Assembly (NCBI GenBank): GCA_028821775.1
Contig: JAPKFB010000024.1
Location: forward strand, 1 to 64,000
DNA length: 64,000 nt
Origin: Roseibacillus sp.
GTDB lineage: Bacteria; Verrucomicrobiota; Verrucomicrobiia; Verrucomicrobiales; Akkermansiaceae
Direction of reading: 5' to 3'
This document shows, one piece after another, positions 28,388-43,769 of the stretch. The position numbers and the translations under genes are program-made. The notes beneath the pieces are model-generated. The model did no database searches. It was not told the DNA's origin and worked only from the letters and a program-made list of their open reading frames with translations. Numbering within the stretch: the first letter of the stretch is position 1; each line of letters begins with the position of its first letter.

Positions 28388-28826
28388 ATGAAAAACCGTC
28401 TGGAATCACTTCGCGCCCTTCTTCTTGTTCCCATCCTGGCTCTCGCCCTGGCTACTTCTGACCCTAGTTGCGGAGAGCGCGCTTGAAAAGGAGAGGTCCA
28501 AGATCAACCAAGGCTACAAGCTCCTTGGAAAACAGGCGTGGAGTGGCAAATTTGAATACGAGGCCCTCGCGAAGGCCATTGCGGAGGCGAAATCCACATC
28601 GGAAGCGGCGGCCAGATTTATTCCTGACCAGATCGAGGAGGTGAAGAGCGCGAGCGCCCAGAAGAAAGTCCTTGCGACCTACAAAAAGAAAATCGCAGCC
28701 CTGACCAATCGACTATCGAGTATTGGCGCGCTCTGCATAGCCCGGGACGCAGGCAAGTTCAGGGCCGCTTCGGCCCAGCTCAGGAAGATGAAAAAAGAAG
28801 GGCATGACAAATTCATTGATGACTAG
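28388..28826 (+). pseudogene. Frameshifted cytochrome b562-like periplasmic protein gene
   Basis: A signal peptide (MKNRLESLRALLLVPILALAL) starts at ATG 28388 in one frame and stops at TGA 28484-28486. The sensible mature part (from about ESALEKERSKINQGYKLLG to the stop 28824) is in another frame that has no good start. One small insertion or deletion near 28445-28475 would join them. The mature part is a charged helical protein ending LRKMKKEGHDKF, which resembles the C-terminal helix with the His ligand of cytochrome b562-like proteins; this resemblance is weak. It lies upstream of the cytochrome cluster. The gene is either inactivated or read by frameshift. Confidence 0.6.
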
Positions 28827-29132: not shown

Positions 29133-29966
29133 ATGAATCTCCCCCTCTTCAAGCGGGCTGCCCTCCAGTTCCGATTTCGGAAGGAGCTGGTTCTTCCCGC
29201 TTTAGCGGTGACCCTGGGGCTTACTTTAACGACACACCTCGTGATCTCTTGTGCGGGAAGCCGCACGGTGGTGGTGGCTCCTCCCAGCATCCGGGGCGCA
29301 AAGGTTGTGGGTTCGAAAACCTGTGCGACTTGCCATGAGTCGATCAGCAAGAAATTTTCGGGCAGTGTGCACTCACGGATTCATCCGGTGGCCGGAGCGG
29401 AGGGGGTGAACACCAGCTGTGAATCCTGTCATGGAGGAGGCAGTCTGCACGTGGAAGCGGGTGGGGGAACGGCCTTTCATCGTTTGATCGTAAATCCCGG
29501 CAAGTCTTCGGAGGCCTGCTTCAAGTGTCATGTGGGTGTGCACTCCGAATTTCGCCTTCCTTCCCATCATCCGGTCTTGGAGAAAAAAATGAACTGCGTG
29601 GAGTGTCATGATCCGCACGGTCACGATATCAAGAAACCTGCAGGCGGGTTGGGACTGGCAAGGTTGAATCAATCTTGTGCCCAGTGCCATCGAGAGCAGA
29701 CCCGGAACTTCGTCTTTGAACATGAAGCGATGCGGGAAGGCTGCACTACTTGTCACCAACCCCATGGGTCGGTGAATGACAAGTTGCTTGTGCAGCGTGG
29801 TGCCAATCTCTGTCTGAAGTGTCATGCTCAAGTCCCCGGAGCCAGTGGCAGGCTGGTCATCGGGAAAGCGGACCATTCGTTGTTTCTGCGGCAGGGAAAC
29901 TGTTCAACCTCCGGTTGCCACACGGCGGTTCATGGCTCCAACATCCATCCCAAGTTCCTCTACTGA
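29133..29966 (+). CDS. Eight-heme c-type cytochrome, predicted lipoprotein
   Basis: 277 residues. It has seven CxxCH heme sites (CATCH 64-68, CESCH 96-100, CFKCH 129-133, CVECH 155-159, CAQCH 182-186, CTTCH 204-208, CLKCH 227-231) and one CX4CH site (Cys257, Cys262, His263), plus many extra histidines that can be axial ligands. The overall look is that of DmsE/MtrA-type periplasmic electron-transfer cytochromes. The N-terminal hydrophobic segment ends LVISC, so Cys40 may be lipidated. GGAGG lies two bases before the ATG. The next gene, 11 bases on, is the heme-bearing outer-membrane barrel, so the two probably form one conduit. Exact partners are inferred. Confidence 0.9.
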   Translation: MNLPLFKRAALQFRFRKELVLPALAVTLGLTLTTHLVISCAGSRTVVVAPPSIRGAKVVGSKTCATCHESISKKFSGSVHSRIHPVAGAEGVNTSCESCHGGGSLHVEAGGGTAFHRLIVNPGKSSEACFKCHVGVHSEFRLPSHHPVLEKKMNCVECHDPHGHDIKKPAGGLGLARLNQSCAQCHREQTRNFVFEHEAMREGCTTCHQPHGSVNDKLLVQRGANLCLKCHAQVPGASGRLVIGKADHSLFLRQGNCSTSGCHTAVHGSNIHPKFLY

Positions 29967-29977
29967 GCTGAAGTCGG

Positions 29978-32725
29978 ATGCAGTCTCGAGCATTCACTCT
30001 CTCATTCGGATTGACTGCGTTGTCCGTTGCCTTGAGCGCTTCCCCCTGTTTGGCCGAGGCGGACTTCACAAAACAAATCCGGCCCCTCCTGCAACGAAAA
30101 TGTTGGAAGTGCCATGGACCAGAGAAGGCCAAGAGTGGCTTTCGGTTGGATAGCCGGGCGGCCGCGCTCAAGGGCGGAGATGATGGAGTGGCAATCATTT
30201 CGGGAAACAGCGCGGACAGTCCGCTCATTCACCTGGTGGAGGACGAGGACATGCCTCCCAAGGGGGCCCCTCTGACCAAGCAGGAAATTGTGCTTTTGCG
30301 GAGTTGGATCGACCATGGCGCTCCCTGGGGAACGGTGGCAAAACCGAACCCGCCGGCCGGGGCCGTCAAGCCGCCGCAGGCTGAAGAGGCAACCCAGAGA
30401 GAGAATGCACCCACCTTGCCCGCAGGAGAATTGGTCGATTTGGTCCTGCCTCCGGCGAGCGGGGAGAACGTGGAGTTTGCGCGGGACATTCACCCCCTGA
30501 TCCAACGTAAGTGTGCGAAGTGCCACGGACCGGAAAACCCGAAGAGCCGTTTCAGATTGGACAATCGGGCCTCTGCGCTGAAAGGGGGTGCCGAGGGGGT
30601 GGCCATTATTCCCGGAGACAGCCAGAACAGTCCGTTGATTCACCTGGTAGCTGACCAGGAAATGCCTCCGGAAGGCGAACCGCTCACCCAGGAGGAGGTC
30701 ACGCTCTTGCGAGCGTGGATCGATCAAGGGGCCAAGTGGGGAGGGGTGTCAGACACTCCGGATTTTGCCTTCTCGCTTGCTCCCACCCGGCAGTGGTTTT
30801 CCGTCGACGGAAACGAACAGAAATTTCGGGAACACAGCTGGATGCGGGAGGGGTGGACCGGCGGCGTTGGGCAACTCACCTTGGAGAGTTGGCTAGATCC
30901 CGACACCAGGGTTACTGCAGAAGGATCGGCTCATGGGCCGGCCAACCTGGATCTCACTCTTGCCCTCAACCGGCAGGAGGTGGGTTTTGTCCGCGGAGGG
31001 GTGGAGCAGTTCCGCCGTTATTATAATAACTATGGAGGTCATTTCGACCCGTTTGCAATTTCTGATTTCAAGTTGGACCAGGAATTGCACCTCGATACGG
31101 GCTGCTTCTGGACCGAGGTTGGCTTGCGACGAACAGGCTGGCCGGAGATCACGCTGGGGTATGAATACCGTTTCCGGGAGGGCATGAAATCAACTTTGCA
31201 TTGGGGGCAATCCACTCAGGGAGGGGAAACGCGAAAGATCTATCCGGCCTACAAACGAATCAAAGAGGACGTCCACATCTTGCGGGCGAATGTGAAGTAC
31301 GATTGGGCCGGATTGCTCCTGGAGAACAATTTCATGGCGGAGTTTCTGGATTTGGAAACGCAGCGCTACGAAGTGAGCCCTGCGAGTGGGGGGGCGGTGC
31401 CGGACACCTTCACCACGATCGAGGATTCTCATGAGGCCTTTCAATTCTCCAATACCTTCAGCCTCCAGAAAGAGATCAAGGATTGGGGGCTCCTTTCCGG
31501 AGGGTACTACTACTCACACTTGGATGCCGATGCGGCTTTTCGGCAATCCACCATGAATGGGATGGGGGCGCTTGTCGTTGGCCAACACTGGTTTGCGCAA
31601 CCGATCATTCATGATTGGAGTGCGCATATCTTCAACCTGAGCACCCGGTTGGGACCCTGGGAGGGGCTGACATTCTCGGGAGGGGTGCAGAACAACTGGG
31701 AACGTCAGAATTCGGTCGGAAGCTCGACTCTGTTCTTTGGGCTTCCGAATGCCATGATGGCGATTCCCCCGTTTTTTGTTTCGAGAGTGAGTTCGAGCAA
31801 GCAGAAGGTGACCACTACCGAGCATGCCACGCTCCGCTACGACCGGATTCCCCATACCGTGCTCTTTGCGGAGGCGGAATTTGAGCAAGGGCGCATCGAT
31901 TACTTTGAGCGCGACCCGGGGGCGCTGCAGGGATTTCTGCGCGATACGGAGTCGCGAAGCAGAGATCAGGACTACCGGGCGGGCTTCACCTTGTCTCCAT
32001 GGAGTCGGGTCTCCTTGAATGCGCACTATCGCTATCGCCAACAAGAAGACGATTATGATCACCTCCGCAATGAAGCGGGCGGGGGGGCCAACGTTGGATT
32101 TCCCGGGTTCATCCTTGGTCGCGACTTGGAGACGCGGGAGTTCCGAACCCGGCTCAATGTGCGCCCGACACCTTGGTTGCGAGTGTTTCTGACCTACCAG
32201 ATGCAAGCAACGGACTACCGGACCGAAACCGACGCGGTCACCTTCGGTCTGCCCTCCGACACGGTGGGAGGGGATCATCTTGCGGGCGAATTTGACTCCA
32301 GGATCTATAGTCTCAACGTGGTGGCTACGCCGTGGCAGCGAGTGGCTCTGAACGGCACGTTTTCGTTTCACGACAGTCAAACGCGCACCGCCAACAATGG
32401 TGACCCTGCGGTCGAAGACTACGAGGGGGAGATCTATTCGATCCTCTTTGGCGGCTCGTATCAGCTTGATGACAAGACAGACATTTCTGCCCACTATACT
32501 TTTTCGCAGGGTGATTTTTCGCAGGGGAACACCGCTGAGGGTCTGCCCCTGGGCATCGAGTACCGGCAGCACGGATTGCAGGCTGGGATCGCAACTCAAA
32601 TCGGCGATAACCTTCGAGCCCAGCTTCAATATCAGCTTCAGCACTACGGAGAACCCTCCAGTGGTGGGGTCAATGACTACACGGCACACGGGGTCTTCTT
32701 GAATTGTGCGTTGAACTGGAAGTAG
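29978..32725 (+). CDS. Predicted outer-membrane beta-barrel fused to two c-type heme domains
   Basis: 915 residues. A signal peptide (1 to about 26, ending CLAEA) is followed by two similar cytochrome domains of the type seen in Planctomycetes (about 28-118 and 165-255), each with CxKCHGP (CWKCH 42-46, CAKCH 179-183), RLDxRxxALKGG and a possible Met ligand (Met92, Met229). A Pro-rich linker separates them. From about residue 270 to the end, alternating aromatic and polar strands and tight turns look like a large outer-membrane barrel, as in porin-cytochrome proteins. It ends NWK rather than in Phe. It is the likely outer-membrane part of an electron conduit with the preceding cytochrome. The barrel call is from sequence pattern only. 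Confidence 0.8.
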   Translation: MQSRAFTLSFGLTALSVALSASPCLAEADFTKQIRPLLQRKCWKCHGPEKAKSGFRLDSRAAALKGGDDGVAIISGNSADSPLIHLVEDEDMPPKGAPLTKQEIVLLRSWIDHGAPWGTVAKPNPPAGAVKPPQAEEATQRENAPTLPAGELVDLVLPPASGENVEFARDIHPLIQRKCAKCHGPENPKSRFRLDNRASALKGGAEGVAIIPGDSQNSPLIHLVADQEMPPEGEPLTQEEVTLLRAWIDQGAKWGGVSDTPDFAFSLAPTRQWFSVDGNEQKFREHSWMREGWTGGVGQLTLESWLDPDTRVTAEGSAHGPANLDLTLALNRQEVGFVRGGVEQFRRYYNNYGGHFDPFAISDFKLDQELHLDTGCFWTEVGLRRTGWPEITLGYEYRFREGMKSTLHWGQSTQGGETRKIYPAYKRIKEDVHILRANVKYDWAGLLLENNFMAEFLDLETQRYEVSPASGGAVPDTFTTIEDSHEAFQFSNTFSLQKEIKDWGLLSGGYYYSHLDADAAFRQSTMNGMGALVVGQHWFAQPIIHDWSAHIFNLSTRLGPWEGLTFSGGVQNNWERQNSVGSSTLFFGLPNAMMAIPPFFVSRVSSSKQKVTTTEHATLRYDRIPHTVLFAEAEFEQGRIDYFERDPGALQGFLRDTESRSRDQDYRAGFTLSPWSRVSLNAHYRYRQQEDDYDHLRNEAGGGANVGFPGFILGRDLETREFRTRLNVRPTPWLRVFLTYQMQATDYRTETDAVTFGLPSDTVGGDHLAGEFDSRIYSLNVVATPWQRVALNGTFSFHDSQTRTANNGDPAVEDYEGEIYSILFGGSYQLDDKTDISAHYTFSQGDFSQGNTAEGLPLGIEYRQHGLQAGIATQIGDNLRAQLQYQLQHYGEPSSGGVNDYTAHGVFLNCALNWK

Positions 32726-32764: not shown

Positions 32765-33949
32765 ATGAAGATGAACAAACCCAACAAACCTTTCGCTCTC
32801 GCCATTGCTTTCGCCGTCCTCTTTTGCACGCTTGTCGTGGATTCCGCCGACGCGAGGTCGGGTAAGCCGCCCATCAATCGAACCGGGGCTCCCGGGCACA
32901 GCACATGTGCCAGTTGTCATACCAGTGCAGGCACCGGCAATGTGAGCTTGGACTTCTCCGGCTTCGGGGAATACGAGCCAAGCCAGATCTATAGCATGAT
33001 AGTTACGGTGGCAGATCTCGGAAAGTTCCGCTTTGGGTTTTCCATGGTGGCGCGGGATGCGGACAACAACACGGCCGATGTGGGGAGTTGGAGTGCAGGG
33101 AGTGCCGACACCCAGGTGCATGGGACGGCGGGCAGTCATGCCAGCCACAAGAACGCACCCTTTGTGGCGGATGCCCATACCTTCACCGTGAATTGGACCG
33201 CGCCTGCCACTGGAGTTGGAGATGTCACGTTCTATGTGGCGGCCGTGGGGGCGAATGGCAATGGGTCCAACGGAACGGGGGACGTTACCTATACCAAGAC
33301 TCTGACGGTCACGGAATTGGTGGCCATGAATGTGGCGCCCGTGGTCGCGGTGGTCGACGGGACCTTGCATGCCACCACAGGCTTTGAGATTCCGATTGGT
33401 GGCGTGTCGATCAGCGATGATGATGCCGGGGGCGGGGATCTCACCGTGATCTTGTCCGTCAATAGAGGATTCCTCAACGTGTCAGCTTCGGTTCCCGGTG
33501 GAATTGCGTCCGGAGACATTACTGGCAATGGATCCGCCAGAGTCACGATGGAGGGCGCCTTGGCGGAACTCAATGCGACCTTTGGGGATGCCGCCGGAAT
33601 CAGGTATCATAGTGACCCGAACTTCGTGGGGACGGACACCCTGAATATATCGGCCAATGACAACGGCAATACGGGGCCCGGGGGAGCGCAGACCGGGGAG
33701 GCGGGAATGTTGATCATGGTGAATCCTCCCCCATCGCTCAGTAATCTGCGGTTTCTCGGGAACGGAGATTTTGCCCTCACCCTCACCGGAGTTCCCGGTC
33801 TCACCTACACGGTGGAACGGAGCGAGGATATGGACGTCTGGGTGCCCCATGAGCAGGTCATTCTCGTTGGTGCCACGGCGGAGATTGTCGACAGTGGGGT
33901 CTCGGGATTTTCGTCCCGATTCTACCGTGCCCTGAAGAGTCAACCGTAA
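32765..33949 (+). CDS. Secreted protein with a single c-type heme motif and choice-of-anchor V / Reelin-like domain
   Basis: 394 residues. A signal peptide (1 to about 30, ending ADA) is followed by GHSTCASCHTSAG with one CxxCH site (48-52). The next 160 residues resemble the 'choice-of-anchor V' / Reelin-type domain (FRFGFSM, HGTAGSHASHKNAPF, FTVNWTAPATGVGDVTFYVAAVGANGNG). A cadherin-like module follows (about 190-320), and a short C-terminal domain ends the protein. It should be exported and may act outside the cell. It starts 39 bases after the barrel gene, so it is probably the last gene of the cytochrome operon. Confidence 0.85.
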   Translation: MKMNKPNKPFALAIAFAVLFCTLVVDSADARSGKPPINRTGAPGHSTCASCHTSAGTGNVSLDFSGFGEYEPSQIYSMIVTVADLGKFRFGFSMVARDADNNTADVGSWSAGSADTQVHGTAGSHASHKNAPFVADAHTFTVNWTAPATGVGDVTFYVAAVGANGNGSNGTGDVTYTKTLTVTELVAMNVAPVVAVVDGTLHATTGFEIPIGGVSISDDDAGGGDLTVILSVNRGFLNVSASVPGGIASGDITGNGSARVTMEGALAELNATFGDAAGIRYHSDPNFVGTDTLNISANDNGNTGPGGAQTGEAGMLIMVNPPPSLSNLRFLGNGDFALTLTGVPGLTYTVERSEDMDVWVPHEQVILVGATAEIVDSGVSGFSSRFYRALKSQP

Positions 33950-41385: not shown

Positions 41386-43557
41386 TCAGGCGAGGAGAGG
41401 AGCGATCACGAGGCTCACGATAGCCATCACGTTGATCATGATGTTCATCGAGGGCCCAGAGGTGTCCTTGAGGGGATCGCCCACGGTGTCGCCGATGACG
41501 CAACCTTTGTGAGTCTCTCCGCCCTTGCCACCAAAGTGTCCGTTTTCCACGTATTTCTTGGCGTTGTCCCAAGCTCCACCAGCGTTGGACATCATGAGGG
41601 CGAGCAGGATGCAGCCCAGGAGTGCGCCGCAGAGCGTTCCCGCAAGAGCGACCGCACCATTATCCTGGAAGCCGAAGCCAACGAGGAGCGGGGTCCCGAC
41701 CGCGAGGACCGCCGGCAGGATCATTCGTCTTGTGGCCGCCCTGGTGGCAATGTCGATACAGCGATCGGAATCTGGTTCGCCGGTCCCCTCGAGGAGGCCG
41801 GGAATTTCACGGAACTGGCGACGAATCTCCGAGATCATTTCGAAGGCCGCCTTGCCGACGGCGTCCATCGTGATGGCCCCATTGAGGAAGGGCACGACTC
41901 CGCCGATGAAGACGCCGACGATAAAGGTTCGGAGGATTTCTGGTTCGCTCAAGTTGAGATAGACGCCGGTCTTCTGGATAAACGCGGTGGTGAGCGCGAG
42001 GGCCGAGAGCCCCGCGGCTCCGATGGCGAAGCCTTTGCCGATGGCCGCGGTGGTGTTCCCGACCGCGTCGAGCCCATCCGTGATCTTACGGGTTTCCTCA
42101 CCCATGCTCGCCATCTCCGCGATGCCACCGGCATTGTCCGCGACCGGACCGTAAGCGTCGATGGCCATCGTGATGCCCACCGTGCCGAGCATGCCCACGG
42201 CAGCGATCCCCACTCCGTAGAGGCCGCCGAATTCGTAGGAAATGTAGATCGTGGCAGCGATGGTGAGGAGCGGAACGGCCACCGATTTCAATCCGAGGGA
42301 GAGGCCGGAGATCATGATGGTAGCGACTCCGGTTTCTCCCTGGCGGGCGATTTCCCTCACCGGAGCACCCCCGGTGTAGTGCTCCGTGATGAGGCCAATA
42401 ATGATGCCGCCAACCGCGCCACACAGAATGCAGAGGCCGATACTCGAGGTGAAGCCGAGCATGTTGGCGAGCCCGAAGGAGGCGCCGATGAAAAGGATGG
42501 CAGCTCCGATGGTGCCAAAGCGAAGGGCTTCCGCGGGGTTCTTGTTCGCCAAGACCCGCACGAGCAGGATTCCGAGAACGGAGCAGAGAAGGCCGATGGT
42601 GGTGAGAAGCAACGGGAGTTGCATCAACTGGGAGGTGGCATGCTCACCGGTGGCACCGAGCTTCTCGAGGAGAGCAACTGCTCCCTGGGCAGCGTCAGAC
42701 TGGGCGGAGGCTTCGATGGCGTCCTTGAGATTGTCTGTGCTCCCGGATCTCACTGCTGCATTGGCCTCCTCGGAGGCCGCGGCAGTCTGGGCCGCCTTGG
42801 CCGCTGTCGCCCCCACTGCGGCTGCGATGGCGATGGTGGCGATCTGAGCGTTGCAGTAGGATTCGAAAATGTCGGATCCCATGCCGGCCACATCACCAAC
42901 ATTGTCCCCAACGTTGTCAGCAATCACGCCCGGGTTGCGGGGATCATCTTCAGGAATACCCGCCTCGACCTTGCCGACAAGATCGGCTCCGACGTCAGCC
43001 GCTTTGGTGAAGATGCCCCCACCGACCCGATAGAAGAGTGCGACCAGGGAAGCGCCCATCGCGAAGCCTTCCATGATCTCTGCCACATCGTGGTGGCCAC
43101 TGAAGAACCAGAAGAGGCCCCCCAATCCGATCAGCCCCATCGATGCCACGGTGAGCCCCATCACGGATCCTCCGAAGAAGGCCACGGAGAGTGCTGCGGC
43201 AGCGCCTTCGTTTTTGGCGGCGAGGGTGGTCCGAACATTCGCCTTGGTGGCGGTATACATTCCGATGAAGCCCGCGACTGAAGAGGAGAGGGCGCCGAGG
43301 AAGAAGGCGAGCGATTGCTGTTTGCCGTAGGCTTCGGGTTGAAACAGGAAGAGAGCGCCACCGATGATGATCGCAAAAATGGAAATCAGGAAAAACTCAC
43401 GGCGCATGAAGACCATCGCACCGCGGTGAATCTTCTCCGCAATTTCAGCGATTTTTCCATCGCCCCCGCTGAGCCTGACGATTCGGGAGAGAAGAACGAA
43501 GGCGATGACCAAGCCAGCGACACCGGCAATTGGAGTGATGATCGGATCGACGGTCAT
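41386..43557 (-). CDS. hppA: Membrane-bound, probably K+-dependent, ion-pumping pyrophosphatase
   Basis: 723 residues, about 16 membrane helices. It couples pyrophosphate hydrolysis to pumping of H+ or Na+ across the membrane. The active-site signature DVGADLVGKVEAGIPEDDPRNPGVIADNVGDNVGDVAGMGSD is intact, with the later GPVADNAGGIAEM and DTVGDPLKDTSGP. The segment GNTTAA (Ala, not Lys) points to the K+-dependent subfamily. Whether H+ or Na+ is pumped cannot be decided here. ATG 43557 is chosen, since the frame extends 19 residues further without a signal. Together with the CPA1 antiporter nearby it suggests ion-gradient use. Confidence 0.96.
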   Translation of the reverse strand: MTVDPIITPIAGVAGLVIAFVLLSRIVRLSGGDGKIAEIAEKIHRGAMVFMRREFFLISIFAIIIGGALFLFQPEAYGKQQSLAFFLGALSSSVAGFIGMYTATKANVRTTLAAKNEGAAAALSVAFFGGSVMGLTVASMGLIGLGGLFWFFSGHHDVAEIMEGFAMGASLVALFYRVGGGIFTKAADVGADLVGKVEAGIPEDDPRNPGVIADNVGDNVGDVAGMGSDIFESYCNAQIATIAIAAAVGATAAKAAQTAAASEEANAAVRSGSTDNLKDAIEASAQSDAAQGAVALLEKLGATGEHATSQLMQLPLLLTTIGLLCSVLGILLVRVLANKNPAEALRFGTIGAAILFIGASFGLANMLGFTSSIGLCILCGAVGGIIIGLITEHYTGGAPVREIARQGETGVATIMISGLSLGLKSVAVPLLTIAATIYISYEFGGLYGVGIAAVGMLGTVGITMAIDAYGPVADNAGGIAEMASMGEETRKITDGLDAVGNTTAAIGKGFAIGAAGLSALALTTAFIQKTGVYLNLSEPEILRTFIVGVFIGGVVPFLNGAITMDAVGKAAFEMISEIRRQFREIPGLLEGTGEPDSDRCIDIATRAATRRMILPAVLAVGTPLLVGFGFQDNGAVALAGTLCGALLGCILLALMMSNAGGAWDNAKKYVENGHFGGKGGETHKGCVIGDTVGDPLKDTSGPSMNIMINVMAIVSLVIAPLLA

Positions 43558-43769
43558 TGATTGTAGTGGGTAAACGGCCTGAAATTTGACCGGGACGCAA
43601 TCTCTCAACAGCACCCCGGGGAGCGATTGAGATTAAAATCAGGGAGTGTTCTGGCAACGGAAAAAATCAGGGATTGTCCACAATTCTGTGAGACAAATTG
43701 AGGGGTGAATTGGGCTTGCTGCTGGGGAGGATCGGGAGCGAGGTTGATCTTGTCCATCTCTCAAGAGGC

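Follow-up and report, generated by a model that had tools for sequence, protein, structure and literature searches.

A protein chain that joins c-type heme domains to an outer-membrane beta-barrel raises the question of whether such a protein is an electron conduit in itself or one part of a larger one. A chain of this kind is encoded in the window (the whole 64,000-nucleotide stretch of the Roseibacillus sp. genome that was analysed). A sequence-only reading had proposed it as a fused conduit, passing over an octaheme gene upstream of it and a monoheme gene 39 bp downstream. The features of the three-gene cluster are as follows.

29133..29966, + strand: octaheme MtrA-type cytochrome (seven CXXCH motifs and one CX4CH, with profile matches; the listed ORF starts at TTG 29112)
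29978..32725, + strand: fused gene for a 26-strand MtrB-like barrel behind a signal peptide and two PSCyt1 heme domains (ORF, Pfam, AlphaFold2, Foldseek)
29978..30055, + strand: signal-peptide-like N-terminus, aa 1-26 (read from the sequence)
30065..30328, + strand: heme domain 1, aa 30-117, with CWKCH (aa 42-46) at 30101-30115 (Pfam, AlphaFold2)
30329..30469, + strand: linker, aa 118-164, 47 aa (AlphaFold2, sequence)
30470..30739, + strand: heme domain 2, aa 165-254, with CAKCH (aa 179-183) at 30512-30526 (Pfam, AlphaFold2)
30767..32719, + strand: barrel, aa 264-914, 26 predicted strands (PF11854, AlphaFold2, Foldseek)
32765..33949, + strand: third cluster gene, one CXXCH (CASCH) and a choice-of-anchor V domain (NF041895, E 6.4e-25)

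The fused ORF opens with ATG and runs through 915 aa with zero internal stops. Both of its heme motifs lie in PSCyt1 domains: PF07635 matched in two stretches with 104.6 bits against a cut-off of 22 (E 4e-30), each with a CXXCH, and in both domains the Met of an MPP motif follows the first Cys by 50 residues. The domains are 64% identical, so the term tandem duplication, applied to them earlier, is a fair one. CXXCH and the MPP Met were kept in all 26 domains tested (25 fused, one stand-alone). The heme-domain tree had poor resolution, with stars on 3 of 23 inner branches and a bootstrap that did not settle, and it did not show which heme domain is the older copy; domain 2 was slightly nearer to the single domains, with a mean identity of 59.3% vs 55.1% for domain 1. 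The Roseibacillus genome as a whole is rich in PSCyt1-like matches: of 57 places that match the fused protein, 55 do so only within residues 1-272.

AlphaFold2 predicted a pair of small domains made of helices (residues 30-112 and 167-249) ahead of the barrel, with lower confidence for the heme domains than for the barrel. The linker between the domains, mostly of low pLDDT and made up to 81% of P/A/E/K/Q/S/G/T/N/D, is 47 aa long in the window protein and 56 and 71 aa in two other two-heme proteins, a contour length of 169-256 angstrom for 47-71 residues at 3.6 per residue. The distance from the end of heme domain 2 to strand 1 of the barrel is ∼10 residues. The ORF, Pfam, AlphaFold2 and Foldseek thus agree with the earlier assignment of signal peptide, heme domains and barrel to one chain, the start being signal-peptide-like by reading of the sequence.

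The sequence-only reading expected residues 270-915 to form a barrel of many strands and named a soluble beta-propeller or beta-helix as the folds that would speak against it. The AlphaFold2 model of the fused protein, built on an alignment of 21 sequences (the window protein and 20 translated loci), had a mean pLDDT of 80.3 and a pTM of 0.67. In residues 264-914, 26 strands of at least 10 residues were counted from the printed AlphaFold2 elements, a count that omits two 3-residue strands. The first Foldseek match was 6r2q_B ('Structure of the Mtr complex'; E 2.7e-15, TM 0.71 on the target), and the next best reached E 1.5e-10 and TM 0.40. We take 6r2q_B to be MtrB and 6r2q_A to be MtrA, the latter being titled 'Cystathionine beta-synthase' in the PDB table. 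The predicted fold is a 26-strand barrel like that of 6r2q_B, which bears out the expectation and rules out a propeller or helix. TonB-dependent receptors made up most of the best 50 of 766 Foldseek matches, but this class was rejected on its TM values (0.33-0.49 below rank 1 vs 0.71).

The profile comparison with the MtrB/PioB and PSCyt families, proposed as a check on the barrel claim, came out for the heme part and was divided for the barrel. Pfam MtrB_PioB (PF11854) matched residues 658-891 of the window protein with 28.2 bits (cut-off 23), but at E 0.01 it matched only 3 of the 21 aligned members, and TIGR03509 gave 15.2 bits vs a cut-off of 240, so the link to MtrB rests mostly on fold. 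By the usual porin rule, the short-turn side of a barrel is periplasmic. The strand number is even, and the loops measure 3-20 aa from odd to even strands and 2-6 aa from even to odd strands; by that rule both barrel ends, and hence the heme domains, would be periplasmic. The heme domains therefore probably face the periplasm in the model, as had been suggested. The first six barrel strands are 10-16 residues long and most later ones are longer; MtrB is described as having 26 strands, the first four shorter (openly licensed text of PMC7198977).

The octaheme gene ends 11 bp before the fused gene starts. In an alignment of 23 octaheme sequences (window and 22 loci, L087 being omitted as a near copy of L086), 16 His were invariant in every row, one in each of the eight heme motifs and eight elsewhere, which fits eight bis-His hemes. 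The eighth motif, CX4CH in the window, is CXXCH in L094, which speaks for a genuine heme site. All 23 sequences matched the GSU2203 and DmsE decaheme models; the window octaheme stayed under both curated cut-offs (158.3 vs 325 bits and 143.2 vs 192.2 bits, respectively). The best PDB match of the alignment profile was 6r2q_A (E 1.1e-36). With eight motifs rather than ten, the protein is related to MtrA and is not a decaheme MtrA. An invariant Cys near its N-terminus (Cys40 in the window) is lipobox-like, and the lipobox pattern matched 22 of the 23 rows, at a different Cys in L090 and L092. The AlphaFold2 model of the octaheme had a pLDDT of 48.

The barrel thus has an MtrA-related multiheme cytochrome beside it, as in MtrAB-type conduits, and, judged from sequence, this octaheme is probably a likelier wire than the PSCyt1 domains of the fused chain. 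Of the idea of a fused conduit, the joining of an MtrB-like barrel to two c-type heme domains stands; the idea that one chain is the whole conduit gives way to a probable MtrAB-type conduit with extra hemes on its barrel.

The third gene starts 39 bp downstream of the fused gene. The corresponding genes of L002 (the paralogous cluster) and L082 match Reeler, and the window gene itself had zero Pfam matches at E 0.001 or E 1. A scan for promoters and terminators gave signals at chance level. Elsewhere in the window, a 133-aa ORF upstream of the octaheme gene (28425-28826, + strand) matched cytochrome b562 with 24.2 bits, below the cut-off of 30, and an H+-translocating pyrophosphatase gene (PF03030) lies at 41386-43614 on the - strand.

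A second copy of the three-gene cluster was found on another contig (C19) of the same genome, its fused paralogue being 55% identical. With the barrel alone as query, 23 loci were found in named genomes, all titled Verrucomicrobia(ota) or members thereof. Their porins carry one heme motif in 20 cases, two in one and none in two; record L082, the one with two motifs, is identical with the G461 contig and was counted once, and contig ends truncate L092, L101, L103 and L104. The octaheme gene lies upstream of the porin in all 23 loci and beside both copies in the Roseibacillus genome. Presence of the fused architecture in the paralogue and in 21 of the 23 loci indicates that it is not due to chance, and its recurrence on two contigs of one genome and in 21 named records rules out an assembly artefact. 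Two of the records, L086 and L088, are MAGs titled Akkermansia muciniphila that carry fused conduits; L086 closely resembles L087 (titled Pedosphaera sp., Baikal), so the Akkermansia muciniphila titles look wrong.

Barrel matches occurred in 18 of 288 genomes of the phylum and 20 of 386 of the order (the Roseibacillus genome counted in both), and in none of the nine other genomes of the genus listed. Among the places examined in these scans, 19 heme-less loci with flanks (L100 being the same place as G126) and 20 with short flanks, heme-fused porins were confined to the Roseibacillus genome and G461; the central frames of the 20 short-flank heme-less places held no CXXCH (frames broken or short in G032, G059 and G338). 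In a tree of 34 barrels, a subset of the loci, the fused porins formed one group (support 100/99) with the two-heme porins as one group inside it (100/100), and the labels need only two changes. A plasmid origin was rejected, the only three plasmid matches all lying within residues 4-261, as was a phage origin (zero phage matches).

Heme-less and fused porins differ in what follows them. For 11 of the 19 heme-less porins with flanks, the start of a 104-153 aa monoheme ORF lies -91 to +83 bp from the porin end, and 10 of the 20 short-flank heme-less places have a CASCH-type small ORF directly behind the porin, the locus ending at the porin in several of the others. Of the 23 fused porins, 18 are followed by 800 bp or more of sequence (L086 and L087 among them being near copies), and behind none of these was such an ORF found within 3 kb or up to the contig end. 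This count leaves out two short ORFs of doubtful status, one of 79 aa in L096 and one of 94 aa in L097, 2.4 kb off. It also leaves out the larger, Reeler-type monoheme genes that lie downstream in each of the three two-heme clusters and belong to another family (259, 394 and 514+ aa). Fisher's test on 11/19 vs 0/18 gave p = 1e-4, as an association only, the rows being related; a single event on one branch may account both for the fusion and for the disappearance of the loose cytochrome, which leaves the counts non-independent. One small ORF of the set, that of L075, is a cbb3-type class-I cytochrome c by Pfam. The best reading is that the fused PSCyt1 domains replace a loose periplasmic shuttle.

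We therefore read the cluster as an outer-membrane conduit of the MtrAB/MtoAB/PioAB type, with an octaheme in the barrel and a barrel-borne periplasmic PSCyt1 relay, at a probability of roughly 0.65. The octaheme protein is predicted to assemble with the 26-strand barrel and to sit inside it as a wire, and the N-terminal class-I-type (PSCyt1) cytochrome domains of the barrel protein, if occupied by heme, would lie on the periplasmic side. Heme domain 2, which ends so close to strand 1, would be placed at the periplasmic mouth of the wire, and domain 1 would hang on the flexible linker of 47-71 residues. The PSCyt1 domains would relay electrons between the periplasmic end of the wire and soluble or inner-membrane carriers, a task that in relatives probably falls to an untethered monoheme cytochrome c. 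A more elaborate version is speculative: domain 1 might shuttle on its Pro/Ala-rich disordered tether from the wire in the outer membrane to carriers of the inner membrane and back, which would tie the periplasmic path covalently to the conduit, the fusion having arisen once in Verrucomicrobiota and the second heme domain having been added later.

The least certain point is the direction of flow. We lean slightly, at about even odds, to electron uptake rather than export, with an extracellular donor feeding an oxidase. His/Met ligation gives hemes a higher potential than bis-His ligation, and the MPP Met kept in every domain tested suggests His/Met ligation and thus a higher potential. Zero matches to NapC/NirT, to the OmcA/MtrC family (searched with the OmcA/MtrC model) and to the RuBisCO large chain were found in the Roseibacillus genome (94.5% complete), which has two COX1 genes; together these favour uptake by an aerobic organism, although the RuBisCO result was itself counted against uptake. 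The known shuttle of MtoAB, MtoD, is described as bis-His (PMC4412085, openly licensed text), so uptake can do without a Met ligand.

The scan of neighbours covered 10 fused loci besides the window, picked by eye as possibly redox. Within ∼2 kb of the fused porins, cupredoxin domains were found in L091, L093, L097 and L098 and Rieske in L085 and L089. Cytochrome b lies near the fused porin in L103, with a stand-alone PSCyt1 upstream of the conduit, and SCO1 and CusF lie near that of L093. The only match near the fused porin of L083 was a carbohydrate-binding one, and nothing of a redox type scored above cut-off for two other ORFs, from L091 and L093. Four cupredoxin matches were found elsewhere in the Roseibacillus genome. 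Four ORFs of 289-681 aa that lie ahead of fused conduits share an FYRVGRLPNP tail, perhaps a sorting signal (L093 2704-3570, L094 2719-3714, L096 3676-4647, L097 1694-3736); those of L093 and L097 are plastocyanin-like.

The same conduit might instead run outward, to humic substances or Fe(III), with the PSCyt1 domains fed by periplasmic donors. He et al. 2017 proposed this direction for Verrucomicrobia porin-multiheme clusters and tied such clusters to genomes from an anoxic humic bog (PMC5615132, openly licensed text). A six-CXXCH ORF of 498-600 aa near 13 of the 19 heme-less porins, of NapC type in L075, the one tested, agrees with export, but it is near none of the 23 fused porins (several contigs being short); the high-potential-type carriers within ∼2 kb of seven fused loci and the lack of NapC/NirT and OmcA/MtrC family matches in the Roseibacillus genome also speak against it, and we consider export possible, at rather less than even chances.

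A role of the heme domains in assembly or docking alone, for instance toward the third, Reeler-like monoheme protein, with no part in a relay, is improbable; the abundance of PSCyt1-like domains in the genome would suit such a role, but the retention of CXXCH and MPP in 26 of 26 domains argues against it. Still less probable is a single-chain conduit in which the PSCyt1 domains plug the barrel and carry electrons across as in Cyc2, which has the identical order of signal peptide, heme domain and barrel (PMC8406198, openly licensed text), given 26 predicted strands rather than 16, the octaheme gene beside the barrel in all 23 loci and in both copies of the Roseibacillus genome, and one or two hemes that would be too few to span the membrane in so wide a barrel.

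The proposed MtrAB-type conduit with a tethered relay shares with MtrAB/MtoAB/PioAB (structure 6R2Q) the 26-strand barrel and an MtrA-related multiheme partner in the adjacent gene, and resembles Mto and Pio, described as lacking an extracellular cytochrome (PMC6344600), in the absence of an OmcA/MtrC family match from the genome. It differs in its octaheme rather than decaheme wire, the lipobox-like Cys on that wire and the fusion of the barrel to PSCyt1 domains, one or two in number. The clusters of He et al. 2017 (PMC5615132) agree in phylum, in a porin of at least 20 transmembrane motifs and in an adjoining eight-heme periplasmic cytochrome, and the text passages on them in that paper mention no porin heme and do not use the word 'fused'. 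MtoD, a free class-1 monoheme shuttle, resembles the proposed relay in its place next to a conduit but is a separate, bis-His protein (PMC4412085).

The earlier premise that heme protein and barrel are always separate does not hold, since fusions are known or predicted. Cyc2 and Cyc572 join an N-terminal c-type heme domain to a barrel (PMC8406198, PMC10654088), but Cyc2 has a single heme, 16 (PMC8406198) or about 17 strands (PMC10654088) and no multiheme wire, whereas the fused protein has 26 strands and two hemes. GM18_3465 of Geobacter sp. M18 combines a predicted porin and hemes in one chain, with ten hemes in loops and 21 predicted strands (PMC4245776). In text passages of openly licensed papers, no earlier description of PSCyt1 on an MtrB-type barrel was found (PMC5615132, PMC6344600, PMC11475568, PMC10654088, PMC10732223, PMC8805035, PMC4245776, PMC4412085, PMC7198977, PMC12285243, PMC8406198); the simpler cytochrome-barrel fusions are known.

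In our judgement, many models of extracellular electron transfer are weak on the periplasmic crossing between outer-membrane conduit and respiratory chain, since the carriers there are untethered and redundant. Here evolution has seemingly fixed a carrier to the barrel, so that partner and direction may be testable in one protein. PSCyt1 fused to an MtrB-type barrel is also a recognisable marker for candidate conduits in Verrucomicrobiota genomes.
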